A stretch of DNA of 53,794 nucleotides from a virus, in IMG/VR virus record IMGVR_UViG_3300025141_009405, positions 1-53,794 of that record. One strand, given 5' to 3'. The translations under genes were made by a program, and so were the position numbers. Shown here piece by piece: positions 9,304-52,166 of this stretch. The notes beneath the pieces are model-generated. The model did not search any database. It was not told the DNA's origin and saw nothing but the letters and a program-made list of their open reading frames with translations. The first letter of the stretch is position 1; each line of letters begins with the position of its first letter.

Positions 9304-9308
9304 ATCTT

Positions 9309-10376: not shown

Positions 10377-10380
10377 TTAA

Positions 10381-11227: not shown

Positions 11228-11239
11228 ATTTAAACCTAA

Positions 11240-11986: not shown

Positions 11987-11989
11987 TAT

Positions 11990-12319: not shown

Positions 12320-12328
12320 ATTAATATT

Positions 12329-15166: not shown

Positions 15167-15222
15167 ATGCGTTTTTTCTTTAATATAACTAATTTATTAT
15201 AAAATATCTATAATAGAGTGGT

Positions 15223-16014
15223 TTAAAGTTTGTGCCATTCATCTGGGATTATATCACTGGTATTTAAACCTGCAGTAGGTCCAAACCACTTAGTGGGAGC
15301 AACCACTTCTTTACCACTAAACTTATTTAAATAAGCACCCCACCAACTAAACGACGAATTGACTATGATATTTTTCTTACACAAAGACATCAACCACAGG
15401 TCCTCTATATCACTATTACCCTCAACCATTATCATATCTGTAAAAGATAAATTATCTTTACACCATCTTATATCGTCCGAAAATACAAAAATATTATCAT
15501 AATCTCCTAGAATTTTTAAAGCCTTCTCATAATATTCTATATTTTGGATTGGGTGAAAATCAGAACGTAAACAATCAGTTCTTCTAATATGGATGGATAT
15601 ACTATTGTTATTTATTGTAGGGTATTTGGTGGTTAGGTGATTAATAATTTCCGTAGTTGGTGAAAAAGCGTCAATAATGGACTTTTTATGGTCTATGAAA
15701 TATTTTTCACTTTGCCAATACCCATCTAAAAAACAATCACTCTTAGGGGTGTTAACCTCATCAAAAACCCAGTTATCAGTAACACGACTTAAGTTGGGTA
15801 GATTTTTTGGAACATCTAAATTCATAGTAATATTAGGGAACTTACTTAGTGTAAAGTCTCTGTGACCCACACCCGAGGCAACGAGTGAGTCTTGATTGTG
15901 AAAAAAATTAGTGTCTAGATAAAAATCTGTGTTATTTAACATAGATAAATTTTTAGCGTAAGCGTATTGAAACATTTGGTTACCTAACCCACCCATAATT
16001 CTAGCAATAATCAT
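15223..16014 (-). CDS. GT11 family transferase (alpha-1,2-fucosyltransferase-like)
   Basis: 263 residues. N-terminal MGGLGNQMFQYAYAKNL, the GDP-binding HIRRTDC segment and SSFSWWGAYLN near the C-terminus are the three GT11 signatures. These enzymes transfer L-fucose from GDP-fucose, usually in alpha-1,2 linkage. No GDP-fucose synthase was recognised in the window, whereas a GDP-mannose 3,5-epimerase is present, so GDP-L-galactose is a possible donor. The 56-base gap upstream is the only sizeable gap in this part of the operon. Confidence 0.88.
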   Translation of the reverse strand: MIIARIMGGLGNQMFQYAYAKNLSMLNNTDFYLDTNFFHNQDSLVASGVGHRDFTLSKFPNITMNLDVPKNLPNLSRVTDNWVFDEVNTPKSDCFLDGYWQSEKYFIDHKKSIIDAFSPTTEIINHLTTKYPTINNNSISIHIRRTDCLRSDFHPIQNIEYYEKALKILGDYDNIFVFSDDIRWCKDNLSFTDMIMVEGNSDIEDLWLMSLCKKNIIVNSSFSWWGAYLNKFSGKEVVAPTKWFGPTAGLNTSDIIPDEWHKL

Positions 16015-16018
16015 AAAT

Positions 16019-16882
16019 TTAAATTTTAATCATTTTACTATAATCCGATAAATTTTCGAGTATGTATTTTGGGTAAGTTTCATCCATTTCTACTTTTGTT
16101 AATTTACCTCTAAAAAAAACATCTTGGTCATTTTCTATATTGTTTTTAATACTGGAGAGTACTTGTTCATTTACTAAGTCTCTTGCTGAGTAAGATGTTA
16201 TTTTTTTTCTAACCATTTCTTCACCACCCATAAAACTAAAATGCCACCCACCATTAGCTAATTTAGTTGTTAAACTACCATCACCTCTAATTTCATTAAA
16301 GGATAGTTCTTTAACATTTTTATATAGACCCATTTTTGAACCGTACCAGTCTGAATCACTTAACATATTTAAGTAGTAAGAATACATAGGCTGTGCTAGA
16401 GAATATATGGTATTATCTAAAGAAAGGGTCTTTAATTCTTTTAGGATTTCTGGGTTAGGGATTTCATCCGCATCTGATATAATAATTATATCATCATCAT
16501 TACAACCCACCAAAGCTCTTCTTACTGATTCTTTTTGAAAGAAGTCTCTACCATAATCTGTTTGTGTACTTCTATTAAATCTATTCGTTTGTGTACGAAC
16601 ATAATGATGTACTCTATCTAATTCCGCATCAAAAAACCCAGTATTAGGTAAGTTAACAAAATCTTCAGGAGTATCAGAGACTTTAAAACTAATAATCTTA
16701 TCCCAAAATTTAGAAAAACGCTCTTTATTTTCTTCTAAATAAAAAGGTTTAGGTTGACCAGAATGTGTAACCGTAGACTCTACAATTACAAAATAATCTA
16801 CGTAGTCGTAGAGAATATTTAATCTCATTTCTAAAATGTCTAGTTCATTGAAGAAATTAAAACAATCATATATTTTTCCCAT
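16019..16882 (-). CDS. GT17 family glycosyltransferase
   Basis: 287 residues. The start KIYDCFNFFNELDILEMRLN, then VDYFVIVESTVTHSGQPKP and DDDIIIISDADEIPNPEIL, are the signature blocks of GT17, known for beta-1,4-N-acetylglucosaminyltransfer to mannose in eukaryotic N-glycans and widespread without assigned role in bacteria and giant or T4-like viruses. DADE supplies the metal site. It sits base-to-base between two GT11-type genes, suggesting one glycan is built by all three. Confidence 0.88.
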   Translation of the reverse strand: MGKIYDCFNFFNELDILEMRLNILYDYVDYFVIVESTVTHSGQPKPFYLEENKERFSKFWDKIISFKVSDTPEDFVNLPNTGFFDAELDRVHHYVRTQTNRFNRSTQTDYGRDFFQKESVRRALVGCNDDDIIIISDADEIPNPEILKELKTLSLDNTIYSLAQPMYSYYLNMLSDSDWYGSKMGLYKNVKELSFNEIRGDGSLTTKLANGGWHFSFMGGEEMVRKKITSYSARDLVNEQVLSSIKNNIENDQDVFFRGKLTKVEMDETYPKYILENLSDYSKMIKI

Positions 16883-17794
16883 TTAAATAATATTTTTTAA
16901 TTTATAATAATCTAATGCTTCAGTTTTGCAGTCATCAAAATCAGATACAGAACCTTCTCTATCCATGTAATGAAAACATGAGGTGTAAGCGTCACCTGTT
17001 GCCCAATAACCATCACTAACGTTATGTCTTGCCCAATACTTCGGGGCTATAATTTTACTACAATCCTTATTTAACCATGCAGCCCACCAACCAAAGGTTG
17101 AGTTAGATATGATTAACCATTTAGCTTGATTAACACAATAATAATCAAAACCTACGTCTATGTGAATACATTTCATTTGAAAAGGCATAAACTGTGAGGC
17201 TGTTGATGGGTCATCTGTAACAACCACAAAATTCATATTAGGATTTAAATTTAACATATAATTTATACAATCCCTCCAGTACTCTCTACGTAGTAAAACA
17301 TTAGGTATACCCCTATATTCACCACCTCTAAAATTAATCACACAAGTATTTTCATCTAAGGTCACACCCAAATCATTTAATTTGTTATCGTATTCTTTCT
17401 TTTTATTATCTTTTATTTTAAACCACTCTAAAATATCATCTTTTCTATCTTTAATATATTCTTCAGACTGGTATATTCCACCTTTCGCTCCCTTATCCCC
17501 TATCAAAATAGTATTGTCATCTATTTCATATAAACTAGGATTTAACATTGTTATATTTACCACATCTACATGATTATATGTTTTCCAAGGTTCATGATAT
17601 TCATTAACGATACCCACCACCTCTTTACCAAAATCTACACTCATAAAATCCATTTGGTTGGCACCATTAAAATAATCATGACTAGGTGTTGGGTTAACAC
17701 CCCATTCGTAACCTAGTTTTTCTGCTATAGTTCTACAAACAGCATATTGCCACATGTGATTCCCTAAATTACCTGTTAAATTAGTTGTTATCAT
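16883..17794 (-). CDS. Divergent GT11-like glycosyltransferase
   Basis: 303 residues. Keeps a GNLGNHMWQYAVCRTIAEKLG start and SNSTFGWWAAWLN near the C-terminus as in GT11, but the nucleotide-binding block reads NFRGGEYRG instead of HxRRxD. The changed donor pocket suggests a different sugar or nucleotide than its paralogue at 15223-16014. The start overlaps the SDR gene upstream by 14 bases. It is probably cytoplasmic, with no signal or membrane segment. Confidence 0.75.
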   Translation of the reverse strand: MITTNLTGNLGNHMWQYAVCRTIAEKLGYEWGVNPTPSHDYFNGANQMDFMSVDFGKEVVGIVNEYHEPWKTYNHVDVVNITMLNPSLYEIDDNTILIGDKGAKGGIYQSEEYIKDRKDDILEWFKIKDNKKKEYDNKLNDLGVTLDENTCVINFRGGEYRGIPNVLLRREYWRDCINYMLNLNPNMNFVVVTDDPSTASQFMPFQMKCIHIDVGFDYYCVNQAKWLIISNSTFGWWAAWLNKDCSKIIAPKYWARHNVSDGYWATGDAYTSCFHYMDREGSVSDFDDCKTEALDYYKLKNII

Positions 17795-18494
17795 AATAAT
17801 ATTTTTTTAGTTCTTCTAATTGTTCTTTAATGTTGTCAGTTTTAATTCGGCCTGTAAGACACTTATCTTTTCCAGCCTCTTTAGGGGTTACATTTAACCC
17901 TTTCTGGAAAATACCATTCATAGTTTCTAATAAGACATATTTACTAACACATTGCCCTTCTAATATTGTTTCTGTTGGATAATCGTCCCAAACAGTCATA
18001 AGGGCAAGACATTGTTTTGCCCACTCTAGAGTAGTATTCCCATTCCACATAGCTTTAGTATAACCAAAAACATCTTCATTTTGTGACAAAAACCATTCTA
18101 GTAAACTTGAGTTACTGTTTAGTTCTGGACCAATAATAGAAGTTTTTAGTATTTTAGTTTTACTACCTATAGAATTTAAAAAGTCAGCAGCAATTTTTTT
18201 AGATTTACCATAATCATCATCATCCATTTCACAATCAGTACCAGGGTGGATAACTCTACAAGGAGAATGAAAATCTAACCATATTGGGAGGTGCCAATTT
18301 ATATCAAAAGTTTTAGTTCTTTGAGGGATAGCACCAATACAGTTAATAACATAATCTAACTTCATGTCTGATTTAAAAGGAGATTCTGGCCATCTCACAT
18401 CACTAGTGACAACCTCTACCTTATTATCACGTAGGTATTGTGTCACCATATGACCTAACATACCTTTATGACCTAAAACTAAAACTTTCATCAT
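17781..18494 (-). CDS. RmlD/CapF-like SDR reductase
   Basis: 237 residues. Cofactor loop GHKGMLGH near 8-15, DYVINCIGAIPQRTK in the middle and catalytic YGKSKK. The short length and loop sequence match 4-keto sugar reductases of the RmlD or WbjC/CapF type (N-terminal half). Together with the dehydratase/epimerase-like gene upstream (four-base overlap) it would complete a two-enzyme route from a UDP-N-acetylhexosamine to a 6-deoxy amino sugar; this pairing is inferred from context. MM at the start leaves two equivalent start codons. Confidence 0.7.
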   Translation of the reverse strand: MMKVLVLGHKGMLGHMVTQYLRDNKVEVVTSDVRWPESPFKSDMKLDYVINCIGAIPQRTKTFDINWHLPIWLDFHSPCRVIHPGTDCEMDDDDYGKSKKIAADFLNSIGSKTKILKTSIIGPELNSNSSLLEWFLSQNEDVFGYTKAMWNGNTTLEWAKQCLALMTVWDDYPTETILEGQCVSKYVLLETMNGIFQKGLNVTPKEAGKDKCLTGRIKTDNIKEQLEELKKYYYDNN

Positions 18495-19417
18495 TTGTAA
18501 AAATTTTTAGATTTTAAATAATTATATAATTCATTTTTAGTAAGACAGTGGTCTCTTGAGGAGTATTCATCGTGTTTAAATGATACTTGGTGTATGTCTT
18601 TTTGTGGGTGTAATAAATAGATATCATCATTTTTTATTAATTCCATCCTTCTAACCTCCTCATTGGATGCCATTATTTCATGTATTTTTTCACCGGTACG
18701 AGGTTCTGTAACCCTATACTGTAAACCAAATTCTTCTGAATAGATGTCAAACAAGTCTTTAACTTTAAATGATTTTGCTATAGGAATTAGGTTACACCCA
18801 GCGTAAGCGGGTGACTTCATAATTAAATCCACAGCATCCTCTACATCTAGTAAAAATCTTGTCATTTCTGCACCATATAATGATAATACCGCATTTTTAT
18901 TAATAAAATTCCAGATTAATGGTATTATTGAACCTGTCGAATTAGTGACATTTCCATATATAGCTGTAGTTAATTTACAATTAGACTCACCCACAACAAA
19001 ACCCTCCCCAGCAACATATTTCATTGCACCATATAATGTGGTGGCGGCTCTACTCTTATCTGTGGAAATAAAACACGCAGACTTAAAATTATTTTGTTCA
19101 GCAGCTAGTCTTGAGTTAAAAGCTCCATCTACAATTGTTTTAGCAGCTTCTTCATAATTGTCATTACATGCTTCGATTTGTTTTAAAGATGCCGCAAAAA
19201 CGCCAACAGTATGGCCCTTGGATTTTCTCATTAATAAATCCCTATTTCTTATATCACCAACAACAAACTTAACAGAAGGATAATCCTTCTTCATGTAATA
19301 ATGTTTAGCTTCATCTCTAGAATACACTGTTATTTCATTATCTTTATATAATCTTTTAACTAGGTTCCTACCTAAAAAACCAGCACCACCTGTTATGAAT
19401 ATTTTTTCGTTTCTCAT
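18491..19417 (-). CDS. Nucleotide-sugar 4,6-dehydratase (CapD/PseB/FnlA-like SDR)
   Basis: 308 residues. GGAGFLG at 10-16, GDIRNRDLL, then ISTDKSRAATTLYGAMKYVAGE, the family's Ser/Thr-Asp-Lys block followed by catalytic Tyr and Lys. Near the C-terminus PRTGEKIHEIM matches the conserved RPGEKxxE block of the UDP-GlcNAc C4,6-dehydratases (FlaA1, PseB, CapE, WbjB). It makes a 4-keto-6-deoxy sugar nucleotide in the cytoplasm. The RmlD-like gene next to it is the likely reductase partner. No membrane helices, so it is the soluble type rather than the large FlaA1/PglF membrane type. Confidence 0.82.
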   Translation of the reverse strand: MRNEKIFITGGAGFLGRNLVKRLYKDNEITVYSRDEAKHYYMKKDYPSVKFVVGDIRNRDLLMRKSKGHTVGVFAASLKQIEACNDNYEEAAKTIVDGAFNSRLAAEQNNFKSACFISTDKSRAATTLYGAMKYVAGEGFVVGESNCKLTTAIYGNVTNSTGSIIPLIWNFINKNAVLSLYGAEMTRFLLDVEDAVDLIMKSPAYAGCNLIPIAKSFKVKDLFDIYSEEFGLQYRVTEPRTGEKIHEIMASNEEVRRMELIKNDDIYLLHPQKDIHQVSFKHDEYSSRDHCLTKNELYNYLKSKNFYK

Positions 19418-20055
19418 TAATATCGTGTTTTTAATATATATAGTTTTTCACCATTTTTACACTTTATATAAGCGTTAGGGTATGGTGAATTTAACCCTCT
19501 TACTTTATCGTGAAAATATTCTGGAGAATGATGCAGAAAATCATCCACCTTTATCTCACTATCCGAAGGTTGTAACCGATTAAAGAAACTACCAACCCCT
19601 AAATCCTGTACTCTTCTAAAAGTATGAATATTATCAAAATTGTCCACAATAAAATTTATTCCTTTAATCCCTTCTCTACTTATATTATCGAATATGTTAT
19701 CTAATGACCCTTCTAAACTAATAGGGGATTGGAATAGAATGTCCCCGGTATCGATACCTTCATCCATTATAAACAAACTAACCATACTAGTTTTTTCATT
19801 ATTAAGTAATTGGTTTTGAATGGGTGTCCCACCCCTATAATGTGGTAATGGTGAGGGATGAAGACAAATACATAAATTATTATCTATTATGTGTTTAGGA
19901 ACCAAATCACTCCACCCAACGAAAAAAATCAAATCAGGTTTAATCGCATCAATAACATTATAATCCTCATGAGATATCAAATACTTATCTTTTGTTTTAA
20001 TTTGATTAAATATTTTGAATGACCAATCCCTATATCCATAATAGACTATTTTCAT
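19417..20055 (-). CDS. Formyltransferase-family enzyme, probably sugar N-formyltransferase
   Basis: 212 residues. The formyltransferase core is visible: CLHPSPLPHYRGGTPI (catalytic His and the LPxYRG loop) and MDEGIDTGDILFQ (catalytic Asp). The usual Asn two residues before the His (NxH) is a Cys here. It is shorter than methionyl-tRNA formyltransferase (~315) and lacks its tRNA-binding C-terminal domain, which together with location argues for N-formylation of an amino sugar nucleotide. No sugar aminotransferase was recognised in the window, so the amine would come from a hexosamine or a host product. Confidence 0.72.
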   Translation of the reverse strand: MKIVYYGYRDWSFKIFNQIKTKDKYLISHEDYNVIDAIKPDLIFFVGWSDLVPKHIIDNNLCICLHPSPLPHYRGGTPIQNQLLNNEKTSMVSLFIMDEGIDTGDILFQSPISLEGSLDNIFDNISREGIKGINFIVDNFDNIHTFRRVQDLGVGSFFNRLQPSDSEIKVDDFLHHSPEYFHDKVRGLNSPYPNAYIKCKNGEKLYILKTRY

Positions 20056-20963
20056 TTTAACGGTATTCTTTGTGGGGCGTCGTAACGTGGAAATTCTAAG
20101 TGGTCTACCTTATCTAATGTAGTTATTGTTTGTGGTGTTACAGTATAAGATATATTACATTTATATTTCTTCATAATATTTTTTATATCATTATTAAACC
20201 CCCCGTTAGGATAAGAAAAAACAAAATCATCAGAAAAGTGCTGGGTAAACCAATGAGACCTACTTATATCAGATTCAACATCGGACAACAGTAAAAGATT
20301 TTCTGAGGAGTTACCGTGTCCACCTATTACCATATTATTATAACTCATCTCCTCTAACTGTCTCAGGTTTAGATAAAAATCTTCAGCGAAAGAATAGGCA
20401 TCTTGAGATACGTATTTTTGGAAAAGGTAGTCCGTGTATTGGTAGTTATTAAAGTTTTCCGATTGGTGGTGTCTTAAGAAGTTTGTTATAAATATCATTT
20501 CCTCACTCCACCAATTATCACTCCACTTAGTGTGGGAATACTTCACCCACAACTCATAAGCATCGTCAAAGTTAGATAAAATTTCGGTAGTTAATATTTT
20601 TTCGTCTTGGGAAGATAAAATAAATTGTATCTTATGACTATGAATCATTTTTTTATCAATTATAGGGGCTGAAGGAACTAAAAAAGTACCACTAACTTTT
20701 AATTTCTTAAGTTCTTGATAAACATAAAAATGGTCTACCAGACCATCATCAAAAGTTAAGACAGCATAATCCACATTACCTTCTTCTAAATTTATGTTAG
20801 GCACATCTAAACTACTTATTATTTTATATTTTTTATTTATAAAGGTTAGTTGGTGCTGAAATTGTTTTTTATCTAAAAAGGATTTTAGATTATACCTACC
20901 AGGAAATTTAGTTTGGTCTAAATCTCTCACATCATGAAACATAAAAGCTCTTATTGTCGACAT
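20052..20963 (-). CDS. Polysaccharide deacetylase (CE4/NodB-like)
   Basis: 303 residues. FMFHDV near the start and TFDDGLVDH (metal-binding Asp pair) at about 88-96 are CE4 motifs 1; IGGHGNSSENLLLL later fits motif 2, though the usual second His is a Ser; FSYPNGGFN near 255 resembles motif 3. These enzymes remove N- or O-acetyl groups from glycans. There is no signal peptide, so it would act on a cytoplasmic intermediate, and it sits next to a formyltransferase: deacetylation followed by re-acylation of an amino sugar is a reasonable guess. Confidence 0.8.
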   Translation of the reverse strand: MSTIRAFMFHDVRDLDQTKFPGRYNLKSFLDKKQFQHQLTFINKKYKIISSLDVPNINLEEGNVDYAVLTFDDGLVDHFYVYQELKKLKVSGTFLVPSAPIIDKKMIHSHKIQFILSSQDEKILTTEILSNFDDAYELWVKYSHTKWSDNWWSEEMIFITNFLRHHQSENFNNYQYTDYLFQKYVSQDAYSFAEDFYLNLRQLEEMSYNNMVIGGHGNSSENLLLLSDVESDISRSHWFTQHFSDDFVFSYPNGGFNNDIKNIMKKYKCNISYTVTPQTITTLDKVDHLEFPRYDAPQRIPLK

Positions 20964-21697
20964 TATTTATATTTTTCGTTTACCTCGTAATCACAAGTAA
21001 AAAAAGTATGGATACACCTTTCTATTAGATGTGCCTCCCCAACCACAACATCCCAGTTAAGTATTTTTCTTATTTGTTCATAAAAGTTTTTACTATACTT
21101 TAATATAGTATGTTTAGGGATTATGTAATTCCCACCAGGTGAAAATCTTATATACTCTGGAAGTGTAGGATTCACAAATACATCTTGAAGAAATGCATTA
21201 GTATTATTAAAATGTCGATAAGGGACATGGTTAAAGTACCAACTGTTATTAATTTCTAGAAATCCACCATCTTCAGCCATCTTACTACCAGGACCATTAT
21301 GTGCTTCAGCACCAAAATCATGTAATTCCGTAAAGGTATTATTATTCATTAATTCATGAAATTTATCTACACCACAATTACCGTTTGAGAGTCTGTTACC
21401 ATCTTCATCTAATCTAGGGGTACCACTATCTTTAGGCCAGAGTAAACACGCTCTACAAAATAGGGTACAGTCTGGTAGATTATCATAATTCCTAACAATA
21501 AAGTCAAACATATCATATATATTTTGACCTACATTAAGTTGGTGTTTTATTTTATCACTTTCTTCGAATCTATGTGATTTATCATAAATTAAATAATTGT
21601 CAGTATACTTATGAATCCATGACTCTTCTATATTATTTGGTAACCAGTTATAGTCACTAGCTACCACAAAATTTGTATGTATTTTTTTATTTTCCAT
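20963..21697 (-). CDS. DUF3431-like protein, probable glycosyltransferase
   Basis: 244 residues from the ATG at 21697; an earlier in-frame ATG at 21742 would lengthen the overlap with the upstream gene from 11 to 56 bases and adds an unrelated N-terminus. The sequence TNFVVASDYNWLPN, then LNVGQNIYDMFDFIVRNYDN and LPDCTLFCRACL, followed by SPGGNYIIPKHTILK, matches the DUF3431 pattern found in fungal and bacterial surface-glycan loci. Biochemical function is not established; the fold and context suggest a GT-A-like transferase. Confidence 0.7.
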   Translation of the reverse strand: MENKKIHTNFVVASDYNWLPNNIEESWIHKYTDNYLIYDKSHRFEESDKIKHQLNVGQNIYDMFDFIVRNYDNLPDCTLFCRACLLWPKDSGTPRLDEDGNRLSNGNCGVDKFHELMNNNTFTELHDFGAEAHNGPGSKMAEDGGFLEINNSWYFNHVPYRHFNNTNAFLQDVFVNPTLPEYIRFSPGGNYIIPKHTILKYSKNFYEQIRKILNWDVVVGEAHLIERCIHTFFTCDYEVNEKYK

Positions 21698-22352
21698 AGT
21701 TGGGGTAAATAGAATTTGTTCCGTAATGCCTATGAAAAGCAAAAGGTCTTATTCCCTGAATCTCAGGTATCATATTTTCGTGAGAAAAATATTTAGCAAT
21801 ATCTATATTAGCAAACTTCATACCATTCTCAATGTACTTATGTCTATAATTTACACAAATATATCCATCTTCATTAGTATACCCATGAAAAGGCTTCCAC
21901 TCCAAATCCAACTCTATAGGCAAGTCTAATAATTTTTTACTTCTTAAAGAAACGCTATTCCCAACCCGGATAAGATTATTATCTATATCTCTAAATGAAA
22001 AATCATCATTAGGTAGTGCCCAAGGAGCACCAATATAATCATATTCTAGAAATTCATCTCTCCATGAATCAGGATTTACTATAAAACCATCGTCGTGTAT
22101 TAAAATACAAAATTCAGTATCAATATGTTTTGGTAATTCATATATAGCCGCGTAATTCCACTCATCAATGTTAGACATTTTAGGACAAGTCGAGTGAGTT
22201 ATAGAATCTGGTAAATTATCAGGTTTTATGTGTGAAACCAATTTAACAGAACCAAAATTAATACCACGGCAACTATACTCTAAAGCTTTTATAGATTTAT
22301 CTAATTTAATAGAACTTAATACCACTAACGTTACATTTTCTAAATTAAGCAT
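21687..22352 (-). CDS. DUF5672-like glycosyltransferase-type protein
   Basis: 221 residues. The core FCILIHDDGFIVNPDSWRDE followed by FLEYDYIGAPWALP and a C-terminal IRPFAFHRHYG is the DUF5672 pattern, a family that recurs in glycan loci and looks like GT-A transferases with the HDDGF motif in place of DxD. It overlaps the fused SDR-GT2 gene upstream by eight bases. Donor and acceptor unknown. Confidence 0.75.
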   Translation of the reverse strand: MLNLENVTLVVLSSIKLDKSIKALEYSCRGINFGSVKLVSHIKPDNLPDSITHSTCPKMSNIDEWNYAAIYELPKHIDTEFCILIHDDGFIVNPDSWRDEFLEYDYIGAPWALPNDDFSFRDIDNNLIRVGNSVSLRSKKLLDLPIELDLEWKPFHGYTNEDGYICVNYRHKYIENGMKFANIDIAKYFSHENMIPEIQGIRPFAFHRHYGTNSIYPNYGK

Positions 22353-23751
22353 ATCTTAGTTTTAACATTCCAAATTCTTTATCCTTAAGTGATTGTGGTA
22401 TGGTATCAGTTAACCTATTACCCCAGGTTCTATTAACTACTGTTATTTCATCTAATATGGTAGGTTCACCATGCAAATCAAACATACGCTTATAATAATC
22501 TACATCCATTAACCAATTTAAATCCTCATCAAAAAACAACAAGTTTTTATTTTTCATAGTCATACCTGTAGGACAACCCATAGTATTGTTACCAGTCCAT
22601 ATCATATTATTCCATCTTGGATAGTATAATCTATAATAAGTCTTTCCATCATTACTATGATAAAATTTAGTCATAATCCACGTAATGTTAGGTTGTGATT
22701 TTAGTAGGTTAGCCTGAATTTCTAGTGAATTTTCGTCATATAAAAAGTCGTCCTGGAATAGTACTTTAATCCATTTCCCCGTACATAATCTCATTGCATT
22801 ATTTATGTTAGGTGATATAATACCCCTACCTTTAGAATTTCTAAAGTATTGTATATTTAATTTATCCACCCACTTATTATAAACTTCTTTAATCGTATCA
22901 TCTTCACTATGGTCTGACAATATAACTTCGAAGTCGGTAAAAGTCTGTTTACTAATAATTCCTAAACTAAAGTCTAAGAATTCTGCCCCTCTACCATTAT
23001 ACCCATAAGTAGGTATCGCAATTGAGAAAAATGGTTTGTTTAATCCTTTATGTAATTTATCTAGATTCATTGATAGATTTTTTGGTACTTGTTCCGGTGC
23101 GTATATCTTTTTAACTTTTTTTGTCTCCGAAGCCAATTCATATATTGTTTTAGTCTCTGTCCCTACATTATACAACCCACTTAAATTATTAGTTATCATA
23201 GAAATTATTAGTTTGGATATGTTGGGCACATAATCAAAATTACCAACCTGGTCAATCCAAGCACCATCATAAGGGAATGGGTTAGGTTTATGGGTGCATC
23301 TACATAGAAGATAATTTTTTGACTGTAGTTGAATTAGTCCGTCCCCGAGTAACTTGGTATATCCGTACCAGTTATTACAGTGAACTGGTACCGTATTTTC
23401 AGTGGCTTCTGTATCAGAACCAGAATATACATAATCTGTAGAAATATGTATTAATTTAACACCCCATTTATTACAAAAATCAATTAAATGAGATAACCCT
23501 TCATAATTCACTTTCCAGTGTAGTTCCTTATCGACACTATAAGTGTCTGTATTTGCAATACAATTAAGTATAACATCATATTTACAATGTTGTATAGCAC
23601 CAAATTCTACAGATGTAAGTAAATGGTAAGTTTCCGTATCAGTAATGTCAAAACCATGTTCCTTTCTAGAAATATAGTCCCATTCGGTTTGCTTAACAAT
23701 TTCCGAACCCAATAATCCATCACCTAATACTAAAACTTTTAATTTTCCCAT
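22345..23751 (-). CDS. Fusion: RmlD-like reductase domain + family 2 glycosyltransferase
   Basis: 468 residues carrying two complete modules. Residues about 1-230 are an RmlD-like SDR: VLVLGDGLLGSEI cofactor loop, HISTDYVYSGSD and catalytic YGYTK. Residues about 240-468 are GT2: FFSIAIPTYGYNGRGAEFLD start, DFEVILSDHSEDDT, KVLFQDDFLYDE (metal-site DD) and NTMGCPTGMTM acceptor region. There is no stop or frameshift between them. The fusion suggests the nucleotide sugar reduced by the first half is passed to the transferase half; inference. The gene overlaps the RfbH-like gene upstream by 13 bases. Confidence 0.85.
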   Translation of the reverse strand: MGKLKVLVLGDGLLGSEIVKQTEWDYISRKEHGFDITDTETYHLLTSVEFGAIQHCKYDVILNCIANTDTYSVDKELHWKVNYEGLSHLIDFCNKWGVKLIHISTDYVYSGSDTEATENTVPVHCNNWYGYTKLLGDGLIQLQSKNYLLCRCTHKPNPFPYDGAWIDQVGNFDYVPNISKLIISMITNNLSGLYNVGTETKTIYELASETKKVKKIYAPEQVPKNLSMNLDKLHKGLNKPFFSIAIPTYGYNGRGAEFLDFSLGIISKQTFTDFEVILSDHSEDDTIKEVYNKWVDKLNIQYFRNSKGRGIISPNINNAMRLCTGKWIKVLFQDDFLYDENSLEIQANLLKSQPNITWIMTKFYHSNDGKTYYRLYYPRWNNMIWTGNNTMGCPTGMTMKNKNLLFFDEDLNWLMDVDYYKRMFDLHGEPTILDEITVVNRTWGNRLTDTIPQSLKDKEFGMLKLRYA

Positions 23752-25040
23752 TTATTTACAAATATACTCTCTATATAATCAAAAACTTCATCCGTGTAAT
23801 GTGGTGCAGCACCCACAAAAAATACTTTATCTAAAACTTTATTAGCGTTAGGGTAATCATTTAAATCATCCAAATGCTTATACCCTGGATGCATTAAGAT
23901 GTTTCCAGCAAAGTAATTTCTAGTTTGTATTTTATTTTCTTCTAAAAATGCAACTAATTTATCTTTTAATTCTTTATTATCACAAATAAAAGGTGTACCA
24001 AACCAACACGTGTCAGCTTTAGGTAACATCGACACACCCTTAATACCATCTACATATTTTAAAAAGATGGCCTCAATAGTGTTCTTACTATGTTTTCTAT
24101 TGGTGTCAATTTCCTCAAACTTCTTTAATTGTACCAAACCAATAGAACCTTGTAAGTCCATAGGTTTTAAGTTATAACCCATATTAGTAAAAACATATTT
24201 ATGGTCAATTATTCCATCATACGACTCTAACCAGTTACCAAATCGTTTACCACAAGTACCACAAGATAATAAATTAGCGGAACCAACACAATAACAATCC
24301 CTACCCCACCAAGCAAAACTAGTAAATAATCTTTTTAGTGGTGCAATATTTGTACAAACAGCACCACCTTCTCCAGTGGAGATGTGATGGGCCGGATAAA
24401 ATGAAGAAGTCCAAGCTTCATAATACTCACTTAAATGTTTACCATCCCATTTAGAACCAATACTATCACAACTATCACCAATCAAGCGTATGTTGTGTTT
24501 TTTACATAATTCAGTTAAAAAGTCCATATCAGGTACGTTACCAAGTACAGGAGAAACAAAAATAGCTTTAGTTCTAGGAGTTATTTTTTCTTCTATTTTA
24601 TTAATGTCAAAGTTAAGAGTAGTATATTCTATATCTACAAATACAGGTTTTAAGTTATTTTGTACCAGGACTGATATGGTTGTTGGGAATCCTACAGGTG
24701 AAACTATCACCTCGTCACCATCTTGCCACCCAAAGTATTTCTTTAAAGCGGATATAAGAACTAGATTAGCTGAACTACCAGAATTAACCATCTGTACAAA
24801 TTTAGCACCAAAAACCCTACCAAAAGCACGTTCAAACTTATTAACATTTTCTCCAGCTACCACCCATTTACCTTCTATAAAAGTTTTAATGGCTGCCATA
24901 ATTTCTTCTTCATCCCAGTAAGGTCCTGAATATAACACTTGACTTTCACCAGGTACGAAAGCTTGGTTATATAGGTATTTGGGTTTATTCTCCTGTAAGT
25001 AAGTTAAGAGGGTGGGTAATATACTGTCTATTTGTTTCAT
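23739..25040 (-). CDS. RfbH-like 3-dehydrase (PLP/PMP, [2Fe-2S])
   Basis: 433 residues, DegT/DnrJ fold. The aminotransferase PLP lysine is replaced by His in SSFYPAHHISTGEGG (H218 by my count), the hallmark of CDP-6-deoxyglucose-3-dehydrase E1 (RfbH/AscC) and ColD. A Cys cluster, CYCVGSANLLSCGTCGKRF at about 245-265, fits the iron-sulfur site of RfbH and not ColD. It therefore likely removes the C3 hydroxyl of a 4-keto-6-deoxy sugar nucleotide on the way to a 3,6-dideoxyhexose. The usual reductase partner (E3) and CDP-glucose enzymes were not recognised in the window. Confidence 0.87.
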   Translation of the reverse strand: MKQIDSILPTLLTYLQENKPKYLYNQAFVPGESQVLYSGPYWDEEEIMAAIKTFIEGKWVVAGENVNKFERAFGRVFGAKFVQMVNSGSSANLVLISALKKYFGWQDGDEVIVSPVGFPTTISVLVQNNLKPVFVDIEYTTLNFDINKIEEKITPRTKAIFVSPVLGNVPDMDFLTELCKKHNIRLIGDSCDSIGSKWDGKHLSEYYEAWTSSFYPAHHISTGEGGAVCTNIAPLKRLFTSFAWWGRDCYCVGSANLLSCGTCGKRFGNWLESYDGIIDHKYVFTNMGYNLKPMDLQGSIGLVQLKKFEEIDTNRKHSKNTIEAIFLKYVDGIKGVSMLPKADTCWFGTPFICDNKELKDKLVAFLEENKIQTRNYFAGNILMHPGYKHLDDLNDYPNANKVLDKVFFVGAAPHYTDEVFDYIESIFVNKWEN

Positions 25041-25759
25041 CTTTTTAATTTTTTATATGGTTTTTTGTTTCTTATTCTTGATGCATGGTCATTAACCATC
25101 CTCATATCTATTTTGTGTTCGTTTATAGGGTTAGTTTCGTTGTAGACGTAATTTACGGTATTCATAAACCTATAATGTTCTTCTCCAGCCATTTCTAACA
25201 TTGGGTACATAAAACATAAGTCACCACTCCACTGCCAGTAATCACCATTTTCATCACGTAAATCTTCTTCTTTTATATTTCTCCATAAAAATGCACGCCA
25301 AGTTCTTATATGGGAAGCTGTAAATCTAACCTGTCTTAAATTATCAAAACCAGTTTGTTTTTGGGAAAACCCGGGTTGTCCGTTCGAATATCTAAAACTT
25401 CCATTAGCAATCCAAACATCCTCATCCTCATAAACTTTATTAATTCTACTTAACACACCAACATCAGGTAGGTAATCGTCACCATCCACCTCAACCAGGA
25501 TATCATTATCTTTTATATCTGGGTTATTACGAATAACCGTATCAAAGTTTCCAGCTTGATATAATTTTTTATCACTTTCCTCCACCAGAACAAATCTTTT
25601 ATCGTCTTTAATAAATTCCTTTACTAAATTTATTGAATTGTCTGTAGAATGGTCATGTGTTATATAACATGTAAAATTTTTATGGTCTTGAGACTGAATA
25701 GTAGCAAGACAACGCTCTATGTATTGTTCAGCGTTATAAAAACCAGTTAGTACTATCAT
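25037..25759 (-). CDS. Family 2 glycosyltransferase
   Basis: 240 residues. Classic GT-A start IVLTGFYNAEQYIERCLATI, ITHDHSTDNS (nucleotide binding) and DILVEVDGDDYLPD with the DxD-like DGDD. Length is at the short end for GT2, with no membrane helices, so it is a soluble transferase. The start codon lies seven bases after the stop of the small SDR upstream and its stop overlaps the RfbH-like start by four bases. Confidence 0.87.
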   Translation of the reverse strand: MIVLTGFYNAEQYIERCLATIQSQDHKNFTCYITHDHSTDNSINLVKEFIKDDKRFVLVEESDKKLYQAGNFDTVIRNNPDIKDNDILVEVDGDDYLPDVGVLSRINKVYEDEDVWIANGSFRYSNGQPGFSQKQTGFDNLRQVRFTASHIRTWRAFLWRNIKEEDLRDENGDYWQWSGDLCFMYPMLEMAGEEHYRFMNTVNYVYNETNPINEHKIDMRMVNDHASRIRNKKPYKKLKR

Positions 25760-25765
25760 AATTTA

Positions 25766-26452
25766 TTATTTTATATATTTTTCTATTATTTTTTGTGTGT
25801 AACCTTTAGACTCAATACCAAACTCAGATAAATAATCTTTAAAAATAGGACTTGTCAATGAAGTCCATCTATCATCTTCATTAGTATCTTTAATTTTCAT
25901 CTTTAAACTACCATCATTAACATTAAAAAAATATTGAATTATTTTCGATAAGTCAACAACAGAAAGAGGTTCTATACCCCCCACATAAACAGTTTTACAA
26001 CTAGTCTTACCCTCACAATACATAACAAAATTAACTAAATCTTCTATATCTACGACAGCTCTCCTAAGATTACCATAAACCTCAAAAGACTCACCTGACT
26101 TTATCTTACCCACTAGATAATTTATAAGATTATTGTTATTCCCACAACTACCGATTAGTTGGGGGACCCTAAATATAGTATAATCTTTAGCGTGTAACCT
26201 TATTAAATTCTCCATTTCTTTTTTATGCCAATAGTATGGGTTATCTTTATAACCAATAAGGATTGTACTAAAATATATAAATTTTATTTCTTGGTGGGTT
26301 TCTAGGGTGTTTAGTAATAAGTCTTTTTCTCTTTTAAAATTTTTTGGATTGTCTTCTTTTGAGTTAGATACTCCTGACGCAAAAATAACAATATTATCTT
26401 TATCGTATTTTTTTAAAAATGATTTAGCGATAAGCCCATTACCTATAATCAT
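25766..26452 (-). CDS. Short SDR/NAD-dependent epimerase-like protein
   Basis: 228 residues. Begins at the cofactor loop (IIGNGLIAKSFLKKY), with FIYFSTILIGY and a possible catalytic Tyr-Lys in NPYYWHKKEMENLI; YGNLRRAVVDIEDLVNFV matches the substrate-loop region of extended SDRs. It is shorter than usual (~300) and may be a minimal reductase or epimerase. It overlaps the GT-B gene upstream by four bases. Confidence 0.7.
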   Translation of the reverse strand: MIIGNGLIAKSFLKKYDKDNIVIFASGVSNSKEDNPKNFKREKDLLLNTLETHQEIKFIYFSTILIGYKDNPYYWHKKEMENLIRLHAKDYTIFRVPQLIGSCGNNNNLINYLVGKIKSGESFEVYGNLRRAVVDIEDLVNFVMYCEGKTSCKTVYVGGIEPLSVVDLSKIIQYFFNVNDGSLKMKIKDTNEDDRWTSLTSPIFKDYLSEFGIESKGYTQKIIEKYIK

Positions 26453-27234
26453 AAATCTAAAACTTTAACCCATTCTTTTATGATTTCATCATTAGATAGG
26501 TTTATTACATCATGTTCGGTAGCTTTACTACCATAAAATTTTGTACCTGTAGTTTCACATTCATCTTTTACTAGTGAAGCTACTTCACTGTTTGAGGATA
26601 GGTAAACCGCTTCTACTTCATCATATATTTTTTGTTTGTCACTAATAAAACCCCTCTCCATAACATTTTCACCTATAAGTGGTTTTACAAAATTATTATA
26701 GTAATTAGGGTCAGTAACATTACCGAATAACATAATTTTTTTAAATCCGTCTTTTAACGCTTTTTGTATTGAGACGTGTGTTTGTTTATTTTCGTCTATA
26801 GAACCTATGATTCCAGCAATACCTTTTGTTTCCGGAGATTTAGGTTTATTTTCTAATACTTCTTTTATATTAGGTATAATACTATATCTACCTTTATATC
26901 TATTGTGATACTCTCTTTGTTTTTTATTTAAAAAAACCACCTCATCCCAGTATTGAGGTATGTCACCCACCTCAAAAATATTTTTTTCGTGACAAGACAA
27001 TAAAACTTTTTTAACATCAGGTCTACCATTTAAAGGTATAAAATGAAAAATCATAGTATCATCTTTACTCATATTTATCTCATTCATCCTACCAGATTTA
27101 CATTTATCTAAGTGCCATTCATGAGGACCATAAAATGTTGTGTCATATCCAGCCTTATTGAGTGCATTCGTTAGATTTATGAATGCAAAGGTAGACCCAC
27201 CACGATTACTCCAACCAGAAACTATTTTTACCAT
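26449..27234 (-). CDS. GT-B type glycosyltransferase, compact
   Basis: 261 residues. An N-terminal KIVSGWSNRGGSTFAFINLTNALNKAG block binds the acceptor side; a second Rossmann-like half (GIAGIIGSIDENKQTH, KKIMLFGNVTDPNYY, then SDKQKIYDEVEAVYLSSNSE) resembles GT4. It lacks the strong ExGxxxxE donor motif, having EVASLVKDECETTGT at that place, and is short for GT4 (~350+). Likely a divergent transferase; substrates unknown. Confidence 0.65.
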   Translation of the reverse strand: MVKIVSGWSNRGGSTFAFINLTNALNKAGYDTTFYGPHEWHLDKCKSGRMNEINMSKDDTMIFHFIPLNGRPDVKKVLLSCHEKNIFEVGDIPQYWDEVVFLNKKQREYHNRYKGRYSIIPNIKEVLENKPKSPETKGIAGIIGSIDENKQTHVSIQKALKDGFKKIMLFGNVTDPNYYNNFVKPLIGENVMERGFISDKQKIYDEVEAVYLSSNSEVASLVKDECETTGTKFYGSKATEHDVINLSNDEIIKEWVKVLDL

Positions 27235-30568: not shown

Positions 30569-31213
30569 TTATTTTACAGTTTTGGTGGAAGTTATTTTAC
30601 CATAGAAAACCTTATCTCCAACACGAAACTGGAAATTTTCATTCATATCAGTTCTTAAACCAATACTTTCATTAATTTTAGTATTGACCACTTCATCTAA
30701 TATTTCTTTTACCGATTCTTTTATAATACTTTTTAGGTTTTTAGAAGATAATTTTTTTGTGGTCGGAGATGACTGATGTAATTGTGATTGTTTTTGTGGT
30801 TGTGGTGCAGAAGTAGACATACCTTGTTTACTCATCTCATTTTTAACACCACTTAAAAATTCCTCACTCAAACCAACACCACCACCATTCCAAGGGACAT
30901 CAGGGATTGGGTTGTCTATCATTGCTTTTTTAATAGCTTCTGGTAGTTTAGAATTTTTTATTTGACTTTCAGTCATCCTTGCCTTCGGTGTTAAGTCTTT
31001 TTTAGCACTATTAATATCTACTGTGGGTAAATTAGGTATGCTAGGAGTACTCATCGATGGAGGTTCACTTAATAAACCACTAGAGTCTGTTACATTACCC
31101 ATAGGCGGCATAGATTGGTTTATATTTCCTTTTGAGAAATTCCCACCATCTACTTTATTCATCACTTTTTTAGCGTTTATTAAAGACTGTTGTAAAGTTG
31201 TCATGTCTGGCAT
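30569..31213 (-). CDS. Putative virion/prohead protein with internal tag-like helix (214 aa)
   Basis: No family recognised. The first ~150 residues are low-complexity, rich in Pro, Ser, Asn, Met and Gln and probably disordered (SMPPMGNVTDSS, SEPPSMSTPSIPN). Residues about 153-175 form an amphipathic helix (KKLSSKNLKSIIKESVKEIL) like the recurrent tag helix of other late proteins. The end (FQFRVGDKVFYGKITSTKTVK) looks like a small SH3-type strand pair. Last gene of the 33.25-30.57 kb minus-strand block; possible core or scaffold component. Confidence 0.6.
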   Translation of the reverse strand: MPDMTTLQQSLINAKKVMNKVDGGNFSKGNINQSMPPMGNVTDSSGLLSEPPSMSTPSIPNLPTVDINSAKKDLTPKARMTESQIKNSKLPEAIKKAMIDNPIPDVPWNGGGVGLSEEFLSGVKNEMSKQGMSTSAPQPQKQSQLHQSSPTTKKLSSKNLKSIIKESVKEILDEVVNTKINESIGLRTDMNENFQFRVGDKVFYGKITSTKTVK

Positions 31214-31216
31214 AAT

Positions 31217-31618
31217 TTAAAATTTTGAGTTGTACATCATTCTATCCATAGAGTTGTCCCCTACAGGATTATATAGTGGAGGTTCACCAAAAGTCAAGAA
31301 TAAACTGTCATCACCTTTCTTAGGTTTCATACTTTTCACCCTATCAACCCTAAATAACCTCCAATCAGGTAAAGGTATACCTTTTTCATTAACTTTTAAA
31401 GAGGGTCCAGATGTTTGATAGGCTCTAATCACTGGATTACCTCTTTTAGAGTATCCGTAAGCTACGGGTTGGATGTCTCGCACGTTACCACCACCAGGTA
31501 ATTTTTCATCATCTAAATACCTTAGTTCACAAGTATGTTTATTGGTAATAGCGTCTTTTATAACACTATTAGAAACATTCTCTGTTAATAATTCTATTAA
31601 AGAGCCTATTAATTTCAT
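31217..31618 (-). CDS. WYL-like domain protein with N-terminal tag helix
   Basis: 133 residues. Residues 1-14 (MKLIGSLIELLTEN) resemble the recurrent tag. Residues about 18-100 follow the WYL outline: VIKDAITNKHTCELRYLDD, VRDIQPVAYGYSKRGNPVIRA and DWRLFRVDRVKSMK, where the conserved Arg and the FRVDRV strand of WYL domains line up. WYL domains sense ligands or bind nucleic acid in bacterial regulators and in some phage proteins. No helix-turn-helix is attached, so it is not a canonical regulator. Confidence 0.6.
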   Translation of the reverse strand: MKLIGSLIELLTENVSNSVIKDAITNKHTCELRYLDDEKLPGGGNVRDIQPVAYGYSKRGNPVIRAYQTSGPSLKVNEKGIPLPDWRLFRVDRVKSMKPKKGDDSLFLTFGEPPLYNPVGDNSMDRMMYNSKF

Positions 31619-41476: not shown

Positions 41477-42046
41477 TTAAGGGTTACCTTGATTTGCTTT
41501 TGCTTCTAATACAGATTTAATCCACTCAATATAACTATATAACTCTGCCAATTGTGCTTCTGTTAAATCTTCTAAACTTACCTCATTTTGATATGCTATA
41601 GGGATGTCCCTATCCATATTCTGTTCTTGTTCGTTTATTACCCGTTCAACAATTCTTTTTAATGTATCTTCATTAATCTTAATAACCTTACTTTCTCTTA
41701 CACCCTTTAGTGCATTATACATTCTTCCATAACCTTCAGACTTTTCATTTCTTTCAGTTACTTCGTTTTCTTCGTTCTGTTCTTTTTCTTCTATTTCACC
41801 ATCAGTGATGTTATCATATAAATCCTCTATATATCTTTTAGCGTTCTTAATTTTTTTATTCATAGCTTTTGTTATTGTAACATCACCTATTTTTTGACCT
41901 GTAGTAACCTGGTCTAATTTTTTTAACGCATCAAATGAGTTCTTTAAATCCTTCTTGAGTGCAGTTTCCGAACGAGCACTTTTTTCTTCAGTTAATGTAG
42001 TTAACTGTTTTTTAAGTTGTTTTTTTGTGAATTCTTTTTTATTCAT
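41477..42046 (-). CDS. Helical late protein with tag-like segment (189 aa)
   Basis: No family recognised. Nearly all helical and strongly charged: FTKKQLKKQLTTLTEEKSAR at the start, a Glu/Asn-rich linker near 83-105 (EIEEKEQNEENEVTERNEK), then residues 119-141 VIKINEDTLKRIVERVINEQ, a clear internal copy of the recurrent tag helix, and a final helix (LAELYSYIEWIKSVLEA). Composition suggests a scaffold or core protein with a proteolytically separable part. Own late motif upstream, own terminator downstream. Confidence 0.62.
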   Translation of the reverse strand: MNKKEFTKKQLKKQLTTLTEEKSARSETALKKDLKNSFDALKKLDQVTTGQKIGDVTITKAMNKKIKNAKRYIEDLYDNITDGEIEEKEQNEENEVTERNEKSEGYGRMYNALKGVRESKVIKINEDTLKRIVERVINEQEQNMDRDIPIAYQNEVSLEDLTEAQLAELYSYIEWIKSVLEAKANQGNP

Positions 42047-49273: not shown

Positions 49274-49951
49274 ATGAAATTCAGTAAGAAAATATTAACC
49301 GAGAGTCTAAGTCAAACAAAAAGTGATAAGAAAGTTTTTACAGAAGGTAAAAGACAGAATGTCATTTTAAGTGAAGAACAATTAGATAGATTATTAGCGA
49401 GATTAGAGGAGACAAAACAAAATTCTATTAATACAATTATTAAAGAATGTCACCAATTAATTAGAGAATCAATCAAGAACGAAGGGTTGGATTTAAATAG
49501 TGATGATTATTCTGGTACTCTAATGGAACAAGGTCAATATGACAGAAATCCGGGTGTTGCTGCGGCTGAAGGTTTGGAAAACGTTCTAAACGGGATAAAG
49601 AAAGCCTATGAGATGATTAAAGATAGTGATACTAGAAAAAAACTAGCCAATTCTATCACCAAATTAGGTAACTTTATGACTATTACAGCTGACGCAATCG
49701 CTTCTGGGAGAGACCAAAGAGCAATGGCAAACCCAGATTCATTAAAAGACCCACTTCCTTATCCTGAATTAGATACCGTTACTGTTGATGACGAAGAGAT
49801 TAGTGAGGAACATGATGATATTCCCAAAATAGCTCATCTAGATGTCGAAGAAGGAGAAAAAATTCAAGAATCAAAAGAAGAAAAAGAAAAACTAATCCAA
49901 GAGGATATAAAAAAGATGAAACAAATAATAAAACCTATATCAAAAATCTAA
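49274..49951 (+). CDS. Helical late protein with tag-like segments (225 aa)
   Basis: No family recognised. MKFSKKILTESLSQTKSDKK begins with an IxTE-like element; residues 29-47 (NVILSEEQLDRLLARLEET) are a close variant of the recurrent tag helix, and IIKECHQLIRESIKNEG (55-71) may be another. The middle (NPGVAAAEGLENVLNGIKKA, ANSITKLGNFMTITADAIAS) is a helical domain; the C-terminal ~60 residues are Glu/Lys-rich. It lies between the sheath and the 132-residue tag protein, in a late transcript ending at the terminator at 50361. Probable head core or internal protein. Confidence 0.62.
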   Translation: MKFSKKILTESLSQTKSDKKVFTEGKRQNVILSEEQLDRLLARLEETKQNSINTIIKECHQLIRESIKNEGLDLNSDDYSGTLMEQGQYDRNPGVAAAEGLENVLNGIKKAYEMIKDSDTRKKLANSITKLGNFMTITADAIASGRDQRAMANPDSLKDPLPYPELDTVTVDDEEISEEHDDIPKIAHLDVEEGEKIQESKEEKEKLIQEDIKKMKQIIKPISKI

Positions 49952-49955
49952 AAAT

Positions 49956-50354
49956 ATGAAAAAGATTAAATTAAAAGAGGGGGATTTAGTTAACTTAATA
50001 GAAAAATTAGTTAAAGAAAACCTCGGAGCTGGAAACGGTCAAAATTTCGGTATGATGGGAACACCAACCGCAAAATATAAAGAAATGATGGAGACACAGA
50101 ACCTGGAAGAAGATAGTGAGGGGGAGGAGACTTATAACTATGGTGATGATGAAGGACATGATAAAAAAGAAGAAATGTCTATGGAAGACCATGTTAAAGC
50201 GATTGAGGACCATTTAGGGTACCTTAAAAAAGATATGGGTTATGATGAAGACCATGAAGACCGTGATGAAGAAGATACAGATTTTCGTGAGTCTAGAAAG
50301 CCAAGAAAAAGAATGGCAGAATCTAGAAAAGTGAAAAGGTCAAGAAGAAAGTAA
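49956..50354 (+). CDS. Short tag-bearing late protein, paralogue of the 1064-1798 protein N-terminus
   Basis: 132 residues. Residues 1-21 (MKKIKLKEGDLVNLIEKLVK) and 34-44 (MGTPTAKYKEM) match the 244-residue protein residue by residue in most positions. It then has acidic and Met/Asp-rich low-complexity sequence and a strongly basic tail (KPRKRMAESRKVKRSRRK). It looks like a targeting segment joined to a basic, DNA-binding-like C-terminus, as expected of head-internal proteins; inference. Four-base gap from the gene upstream. Confidence 0.65.
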   Translation: MKKIKLKEGDLVNLIEKLVKENLGAGNGQNFGMMGTPTAKYKEMMETQNLEEDSEGEETYNYGDDEGHDKKEEMSMEDHVKAIEDHLGYLKKDMGYDEDHEDRDEEDTDFRESRKPRKRMAESRKVKRSRRK

Positions 50355-51311: not shown

Positions 51312-52166
51312 ATGTCACAACAAATAATAATAACTAAAGAACAGTTAAAAAGAGTGGGTGGTTTAATAGAAGAACAATCTCCAGGCATTAGAGCATATAG
51401 TTTCGATTGGGATGATAATATTCTTAAAATGCCCACCACAATTAAAATGTTAAAGAAGACTGATAATGGGTGGGAACCTATTAATGTTGGTACAGAAGAA
51501 TTTGCTTTGGTTAGAGATAGTGATGGTTATAAATTAGATGATGGTGCCTTTGATAATTTTATAGATGATGATGCATTTATTAGTGATTTAGAACAGGCTC
51601 TAAGTACTAATTCATTCGCACCTTCATTCGATAAATTTAAAGAAGCACTAATATATGCAAATCCGATATCTATAATAACTGCAAGAGGACACAATCCTAG
51701 AGCGTTAAGAAAAGGTATGGATTTGGTCATTTCACACACATTTAGTGAAGAAGACTTGGGGAGAATGATTGACAATATCCAACAAACATACCCTGAATTA
51801 GAAGGGGAAGACGCAGGAATAGTATTAAAAACTTATTTAGATTCACATGAATACCACCCAGTCACATCCAAAATGTTTACCGATAGATTTGGTTTGGAGG
51901 GTGGCTCGGCAGCAAATCCAGAGGAAAATAAAAAGATAGCATTAAGAGACTACGTTGCAAATATAGTCTCCAAAGCCTCTCAAATGGTAAATACGGGGGA
52001 TAAAAAACTCTCAGTTGGGTTTAGTGATGATGATTTGGGTAACATAAACGCAATAATTCCTTTTATACAAGAGGTATTACAAGTAGAATTTCCAGATGTA
52101 GATTTTGTGGTTTACGACACATCTGAAGGTGGAATGAACAAAATAGTATTAAAACAAGTCGATTAA
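51312..52166 (+). CDS. HAD-superfamily phosphatase-like enzyme with N-terminal tag helix
   Basis: 284 residues. Residues 1-22 (SQQIIITKEQLKRVGGLIEE) are the recurrent tag-type segment. The HAD domain follows at once: motif I YSFDWDDNILKMP (D32, D34), motif II ISIITARGHNPRALRKG near 115-131, a cap-like helical region, and motif IV GFSDDDLGNI near 237-246. It has both catalytic aspartates, unlike the 10655 protein. Substrate unknown: nucleotide, sugar or nucleic-acid phosphates are possible. Late promoter and tag suggest it may be packaged in the head and act after injection; inference. Confidence 0.75.
   Translation: MSQQIIITKEQLKRVGGLIEEQSPGIRAYSFDWDDNILKMPTTIKMLKKTDNGWEPINVGTEEFALVRDSDGYKLDDGAFDNFIDDDAFISDLEQALSTNSFAPSFDKFKEALIYANPISIITARGHNPRALRKGMDLVISHTFSEEDLGRMIDNIQQTYPELEGEDAGIVLKTYLDSHEYHPVTSKMFTDRFGLEGGSAANPEENKKIALRDYVANIVSKASQMVNTGDKKLSVGFSDDDLGNINAIIPFIQEVLQVEFPDVDFVVYDTSEGGMNKIVLKQVD

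Follow-up and report, generated by a model that had tools for sequence, protein, structure and literature searches.

A short N-terminal leader on unrelated proteins of uncultured T4-like phages as a candidate capsid-targeting sequence

Many otherwise unrelated proteins in a large group of uncultured T4-like phages begin with the same short leader, which is exchanged between cargoes, closes on a fixed hydrophobic-x-E motif where conservation ends sharply, and occurs in the same phages as the prohead protease gp21. The best explanation, to which we give a probability of about 0.8, is a capsid-targeting sequence, N-terminal and removable, that would load cargo proteins into the head for injection; location in the head and cleavage by gp21 are what we infer from the sequences and from comparison with T4.

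Copies of the segment in the window

The window is the whole stretch of DNA analysed here, 53,794 nucleotides of a viral record (IMG/VR IMGVR_UViG_3300025141_009405). The major capsid protein gp23 is cut by the start of the window, with its C-terminal part at 75-533 on the plus strand (Pfam PF07068, 4.4e-36). The T4-like group to which the window belongs is uncultured and very large, with at least 600 matches in a search with gp23. Positions 8506-27234 hold a long series of sugar genes (glycosyltransferase, epimerase, aminotransferase and others) with a PhoH-like gene within it, all assigned from sequence only.

The first-pass annotation had reported the segment at seven positions, and all seven were recovered. 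It is N-terminal in the proteins at 1064-1798 (minus strand) and 49956-50354 (plus), degenerate at the start of the HAD-like protein at 51312-52166 (plus), present in a short form in the WYL-like protein at 31217-31618 (minus), and internal in the proteins at 49274-49951, 41477-42046 and 30569-31213. The hydrophobic-x-E ending that it had described is also there in each case: LVKE in both 1064 and 49956, LIEE in 51312, LLTE in 31217, and RLEE, VINE and ILDE in the internal copies of 49274, 41477 and 30569, respectively. Overlooked were a second segment inside 1064 (residues 90-106) and a short leader opening the 49274 protein. The copies and related sites are as follows (a slash marks the putative cut; scores are from the 12-column model described in the next section).

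1736-1798, minus strand: leader MKKIRISESELIDLIEKLVKE/N at the N-terminus of the 244-aa protein, whose gene adjoins gp23; score 24.1; kept in L001, L002 and L003
1481-1531, minus strand: second, internal copy KITESQLVRRLSRKLNE/DN in the 244-aa protein; score 16.3; internal copy also in L001 (the same as G001) and L002
1235-1249, minus strand: possible third site KLITE/K, ahead of the C-terminal module of the 244-aa protein; evidence from sequence only
49956-50018, plus strand: leader MKKIKLKEGDLVNLIEKLVKE/N at the N-terminus of the 132-aa protein, paralogous to 1064; score 19.5
51312-51374, plus strand: leader MSQQIIITKEQLKRVGGLIEE/Q of the HAD-like protein; [ILV]-x-E precedes the FDWDDN domain in 50 of 51 distinct relatives
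31580-31618, minus strand: short leader MKLIGSLIELLTE/N of the WYL-like protein; [ILV]-x-E in 15 of 15 relatives
49274-49303, plus strand: short leader MKFSKKILTE/S of the 225-aa protein; read from its sequence
49358-49411, plus strand: internal leader-like segment NVILSEEQLDRLLARLEE/T in the 49274 protein; score 14.1; kept in G001
41630-41686, minus strand: internal leader-like segment VIKINEDTLKRIVERVINE/Q in the protein at 41477-42046; score 16.6; in G001 as VVKVNEGTLKRIVERVIKE/Q
30692-30754, minus strand: internal segment KLSSKNLKSIIKESVKEILDE in the protein at 30569-31213, resembling the longer ...IVKESVNKILxE variant; weak alone

Five segments of the window score 14 or more, namely the two in 1064 and those in 49956, 41477 and 49274. 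By themselves the copies in the HAD-like, WYL-like and 30569 proteins have diverged too far to convince, and only their relatives lend them support. Are the carriers really unrelated, as had been claimed? For the pair 1064 and 49956 the claim fails, since these two share a paralogous stretch of about 57 residues (52% identity, E 1e-16); across the relatives it holds, with 107 unrelated cargo clusters. The tagged proteins had also been called late, and they may be so, judging only from the adjoining structural genes.

The 244-aa protein is possibly a precursor of two or three parts. Its C-terminal module (residues 202-244) is found again in L002, behind another copy of the leader. A match to this module (KCPESGCITKRGKSWRIISNRTGKLWKAKYDTRKDAEDGLEAYHANR; window 1064-1249) with 58% identity is present in the human faecal phage contig MT837925.

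Sequence, statistics and forms of the leader

The full leader in the T4-like relatives reads MK(R/K)I(I/V)(R/K)LTESDLxRIV(K/R)RVIxE. How often would such a segment be met by chance? An earlier model of 20 columns included the E-site columns and was dropped for statistics because it was circular; a 12-column model of the leader head, free of those columns, was therefore used to scan the window, six relatives and the cultured Flavobacterium phage immuto. At a score of 18 or more it gave 33 matches, all of them at most 13 residues from the protein start, while the controls gave 0.1 match per shuffled proteome and one match in reversed proteins. A profile scan of relatives, which the first-pass annotation had proposed as a check, thus places the segment on many unrelated proteins. 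There are about ten carriers of the full form in each of the genomes G005 and G011.

The spread of the leader was then followed with a DNA pattern in which only residues 1-12 were fixed, MK(R/K)I(I/V)(R/K)LTES(D/E)L and near variants. This pattern occurs in at least 120 stretches of viral contigs. Bacterial and archaeal genomes totalling 257 Gb have it at only two loci, both in metagenome-assembled bins. The leader is nearly virus-only. Among the matches listed, 141 distinct proteins could be compared beyond the fixed residues, and 129 of them carry [ILV] at position 20 and E at position 22, as against the 1.7% per position at which [ILV]-x-E occurs in the background. Eleven of the remaining 12 have a four-residue insertion (SVxKILxE) and bear [ILV]-x-E at 24-26. 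Positions 14-20 of the same proteins are strongly conserved as well (R, I/L, V/I, K/R, R/K, V/I and I/V/L). The information per column is 3.66 bits at E22, falls to 1.15, 0.68 and 0.58 in the next three columns, and then stays at about 0.2. The insertion shifts the site by four residues without loss of the motif, so the end of conservation tracks the hydrophobic-x-E motif wherever it is placed.

Leaders on different cargoes of the same contig resemble each other more than leaders of different contigs do: 71% of residues 13-22 are alike within contigs vs 54% between contigs, a difference reached in 0 of 1000 permutations. Such lineage-specific leaders fit both adaptation to a phage-specific partner and recent copying of the leader within a genome. 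The N-terminal [ILV]-x-E motif is also in excess genome-wide, with 45 occurrences in G005 against 8.4 expected. When the last residue of the N-terminal hydrophobic-hydrophobic-x-X pattern was varied, E gave the largest excess by count, and S, Q and R were also enriched in some sets; since these other P1 residues behave in this way, the genome-wide excess was not used as proof.

The full form is not the only one. A second form, MKIIITExQYxxLxE, is widespread in viral contigs (for example L389, L414 and L457), and of 125 proteins that carry it 89 have their first hydrophobic-x-E beyond residue 9 ending at position 14-16. A third and very short form (MKKLIKE, MKELIRNILKE and similar) emerged on comparing homologues of tagged proteins. 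By size, the leader forms have about 22-26, 16 and 6-13 residues. Phage immuto, a T4-like phage with gp21, offers a separate case. The LTESDL leader was not found in it by the 12-column scan; it has its own leader of about 24 residues, M(E)NFDLKKFLVENKLTxNSKLLKE, on four otherwise different proteins (L133:1803-2318, L135:3806-4354, L135:17631-18632 and L135:18632-18931), the only four carriers found. Most copies end in [IL]-x-E and one ends in LLEVE. In the proteins immuto26A_3, _179, _194 and _195 of this phage, whose host is Flavobacterium sp. LMO8, the putative sites read NSKLINE, NSRLLE, NAQLLKE and NSKILKE. Immuto and the group of the window are alike in being T4-like with gp21 and a leader on different proteins; the leader sequence differs. 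No earlier report of the immuto leader was found in the literature, nor of the full leader in searches that included sequence strings, within an incomplete literature coverage.

Cargo proteins and exchange of leaders

What kinds of proteins stand behind the leader? The cargo parts of 138 longer proteins among the matches listed fall into 107 clusters, with no detectable similarity between clusters, and an alignment of 101 representatives is conserved in the leader only, so that a short N-terminal leader is indeed common to otherwise unrelated proteins. Almost all full-form carriers are of unknown family. Three Pfam families were recognised among the 101 representatives, and a PHROGs search of the full-form carrier representatives named none of them; no replication enzyme was named by Pfam or PHROGs in this set. 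Behind the second form stand, among others, four lysozymes, two sigma-70 factors, and DHH, SET and IrrE-like peptidase proteins. One tagged protein (L479:6770-9013) combines a DHH phosphoesterase with a SET domain. In G011, a tagged gene of 98 aa is located between gp21 and gp22.

The exchange of leaders can be followed on a single cargo. A DHH-family phosphoesterase (Pfam DHH, 3e-4 on one member) was collected from 80 loci, and its 29 distinct leaders, of 6-22 residues, range from MKLLKE to MKKIVKLTESELTQVIKRMITE. All 29 close with hydrophobic-x-E directly before S-G-(I/L/V)-R, where the E at the junction could be part of the domain. In the HAD-like protein, the [ILV]-x-E kept by the distinct relatives lies nearly always 5 to 11 residues ahead of the domain, and the sequence and length of the leader vary. 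An AlphaFold2 model built with 33 relatives has a pLDDT of about 45 in the leader and of about 90 in the domain, which starts at residue 26. A fold search with this model gave no significant match (best E 0.22), and the HAD assignment therefore rests on motifs only (FDWDDN, TARG). The WYL-like protein likewise keeps its motif while the surroundings have changed.

Some homologues of tagged proteins have no leader and stand in frame behind another protein, with [ILV]-x-E at or near the junction, as in EKNINE/STFDKNSKLIYK of G005. Fused homologues with the motif near the junction were noted in L092, L093, L407, L431, L444 and L455. By their sequences these fused homologues look like precursors of several cargo modules, and the 244-aa protein of the window may be another such precursor.

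Head protease, known systems and alternative explanations

In T4, the internal proteins carry a leader of 10-19 residues, the capsid targeting sequence (CTS), which directs them to the core of the prohead and is afterwards cleaved off (PMC9026906, PMC9958956), and gp21 cleaves after L/I-x-E (PMC9026906). With an Asp in place of the Glu of the motif, T4 processing is prevented while targeting persists (PMC9026906). Is a comparable protease at hand in the phages studied here? No gp21 was found within the 53.8 kb record of the window, because the window starts inside gp23 and the gp21 region falls off its end. A gp21-like protease encoded elsewhere had been named as a further check, and it is present in the relatives beside gp22 and gp23: a gp21-family gene lies just upstream of gp22-gp23 (Pfam Peptidase_S77, PF03420, 1.6e-25), and gp20, gp21 and gp22, off the window here, all precede gp23. 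The gene order in L001 is terminase, portal gp20, two small genes, prohead protease gp21, scaffold gp22 and gp23, followed on the opposite strand by the orthologue of window gene 1064. The L001 gp22 had no match in a Pfam search, and its scaffold name is given by position. Against the solved structure of T4 gp21 (5jbl) the L001 protease scores 3e-17, and its ELNHPES and SSRG stretches agree with the putative catalytic His and Ser.

The end of the leader coincides with the gp21 consensus, and conservation stops there. The same motif is found at the expected substrates of the relatives: gp23 has LINE/A in 47 of 47 distinct prosegments, and gp21 has [ILV]-x-E near its own N-terminus in 46 of 46, mostly as GILIE/YDAG, comparable to LIE-9 of T4 gp21. 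The gp21 family is present in 19 of 31 tagged records of at least 50 kb vs 1 of 19 viral records chosen by a random 14-mer (p 7e-5), supporting evidence that is partly phylogenetic and may reflect shared ancestry only. Fourteen tagged records without gp21 are also without gp20 and a significant gp23; two of the gp21-less records, of more than 200 kb, share the tail tube protein of the window, and one record has the terminase at its very end. With gp20 and gp23 missing too, the tail tube shared and the terminase at the end, the gp21-less records look like fragments, a view that fits less well for G048, which comes from a bacterial bin, and for G013, where a weak gp23-like match was obtained. 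A terminase gene at a contig end, with one in-frame TAA, was noted at G030:410-2170. The sequence by itself leaves more than one possible cut point, since the full leader contains LTE, another fit to the motif.

The leader resembles the CTS of IPI, IPII and IPIII of T4 in that it is short, stands at the N-terminus of otherwise unrelated small proteins (PMC9026906, PMC9958956) and ends at the gp21 motif L/I-x-E, in phages with T4-type gp21, gp22 and gp23 (gp21 in the relatives). It differs in its sequence, in having several exchangeable forms, in marking many more proteins per genome, and in occurring inside proteins also. A tblastn search of 50,697 phages with the leader consensus, of little power with a 24-residue query, found no T4-like record and one weak match only, to Pseudomonas phage Rollin (E = 1). 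The best explanation of the sequences is a leader that would work like the T4 CTS and is not homologous to it in sequence, as far as the comparison reached. The likeness of the leader to the N-terminal helix of gp22, which would have pointed to a receptor, is weak and not significant (hhalign E 0.035, probability 1.4%). The giant phages phiKZ and SPN3US also have a gp21-related protease, which cuts after a short x-x-E motif, with propeptides on several internal or ejection proteins and a shared N-terminus in the paralogues gp53 and gp54 (PMC5694885). There, several propeptides are longer than 100 residues and cutting follows A-x-E or S-x-E, and the text consulted describes no short leader shared across unrelated cargo (PMC5694885). 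Long propeptides of that type were not found here, where the leaders have 6-26 residues and end in [ILV]-x-E.

How might such a leader act? As a short basic-hydrophobic helix, it would draw its protein into the inner core while the prohead grows, with the scaffold gp22 or some other core protein as the probable binding partner. After the shell has closed, a gp21-type protease would cut after the closing [ILV]-x-E; the leader would be lost, and the cargo, freed in the head, would stay with the packaged DNA and be injected at the next infection. Internal copies would be cut sites in precursors carrying two or more cargo modules. The first-pass annotation had proposed a tag of this kind, and the idea now has strong indirect support at the sequence level from the spread of the profile, gp21 in the relatives, the leader end at the gp21 consensus and the full-form carrier representatives, among which Pfam and PHROGs name no replication enzyme.

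Other explanations should be weighed against this one. The segment might be a propeptide cut by gp21 that serves mainly to build the core or set the head size, like those of T4 gp22, gp67 and gp68, rather than to load cargo for injection. Some carriers are small, acidic and located beside head genes (1064, 49956 and the G011 gene between gp21 and gp22), and internal copies would split a protein into pieces as in T4 core proteins; however, the 107 cargo clusters are too varied for such a role, include enzyme-like DHH, lysozyme, sigma-70 and HAD-like proteins, and differ in family from relative to relative, and we regard it as unlikely. Rather less probable is a docking helix for some other partner, such as host RNA polymerase, a membrane, a phage compartment or the tail, with hydrophobic-x-E as a binding face instead of a cut site. 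An amphipathic basic helix, conserved beyond the needs of cleavage alone and with its cleavage only predicted, would suit docking, but leaders of 6 to 22 residues have nothing in common except a basic start and a hydrophobic-x-E end, the insertion variant still has the site, displaced by four residues, and conservation ends abruptly after E.

It is hardly credible that the pattern arose by chance, from a helical feature common in AT-rich phage proteins, or from a single gene through recent paralogy. It is true that helices rich in Lys and Glu are common and that two carriers of the window are paralogous. But the 33 matches against 0.1 in shuffled sets (score of 18 or more), the unrelated cargo and the two loci in the bacterial genomes searched speak otherwise; chance is excluded statistically for the full-length form and is possible for single degenerate copies such as 30569.

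What would a capsid-targeting leader mean for these phages? Of the three small internal proteins that T4 loads by a leader, at least one enters the host by injection and blocks a defence enzyme there (PMC9958956). We lean, by a modest balance, to the view that in a large T4-like branch a handful of interchangeable leaders marks all head-borne proteins, including candidate takeover enzymes (lysozymes, sigma factors and the DHH phosphoesterase) and precursors of more than one part from which several injected proteins would be cut. The leaders would then also be a natural set of short tags with which to package other proteins in phage heads; immuto, being in culture, permits a direct test. If the leader is such an address label, the injected proteome of such phages would be readable from sequence alone. 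If many proteins are so loaded, the leader would turn many unknown phage genes into predicted injected proteins, which would be prime candidates for anti-defence and takeover functions.
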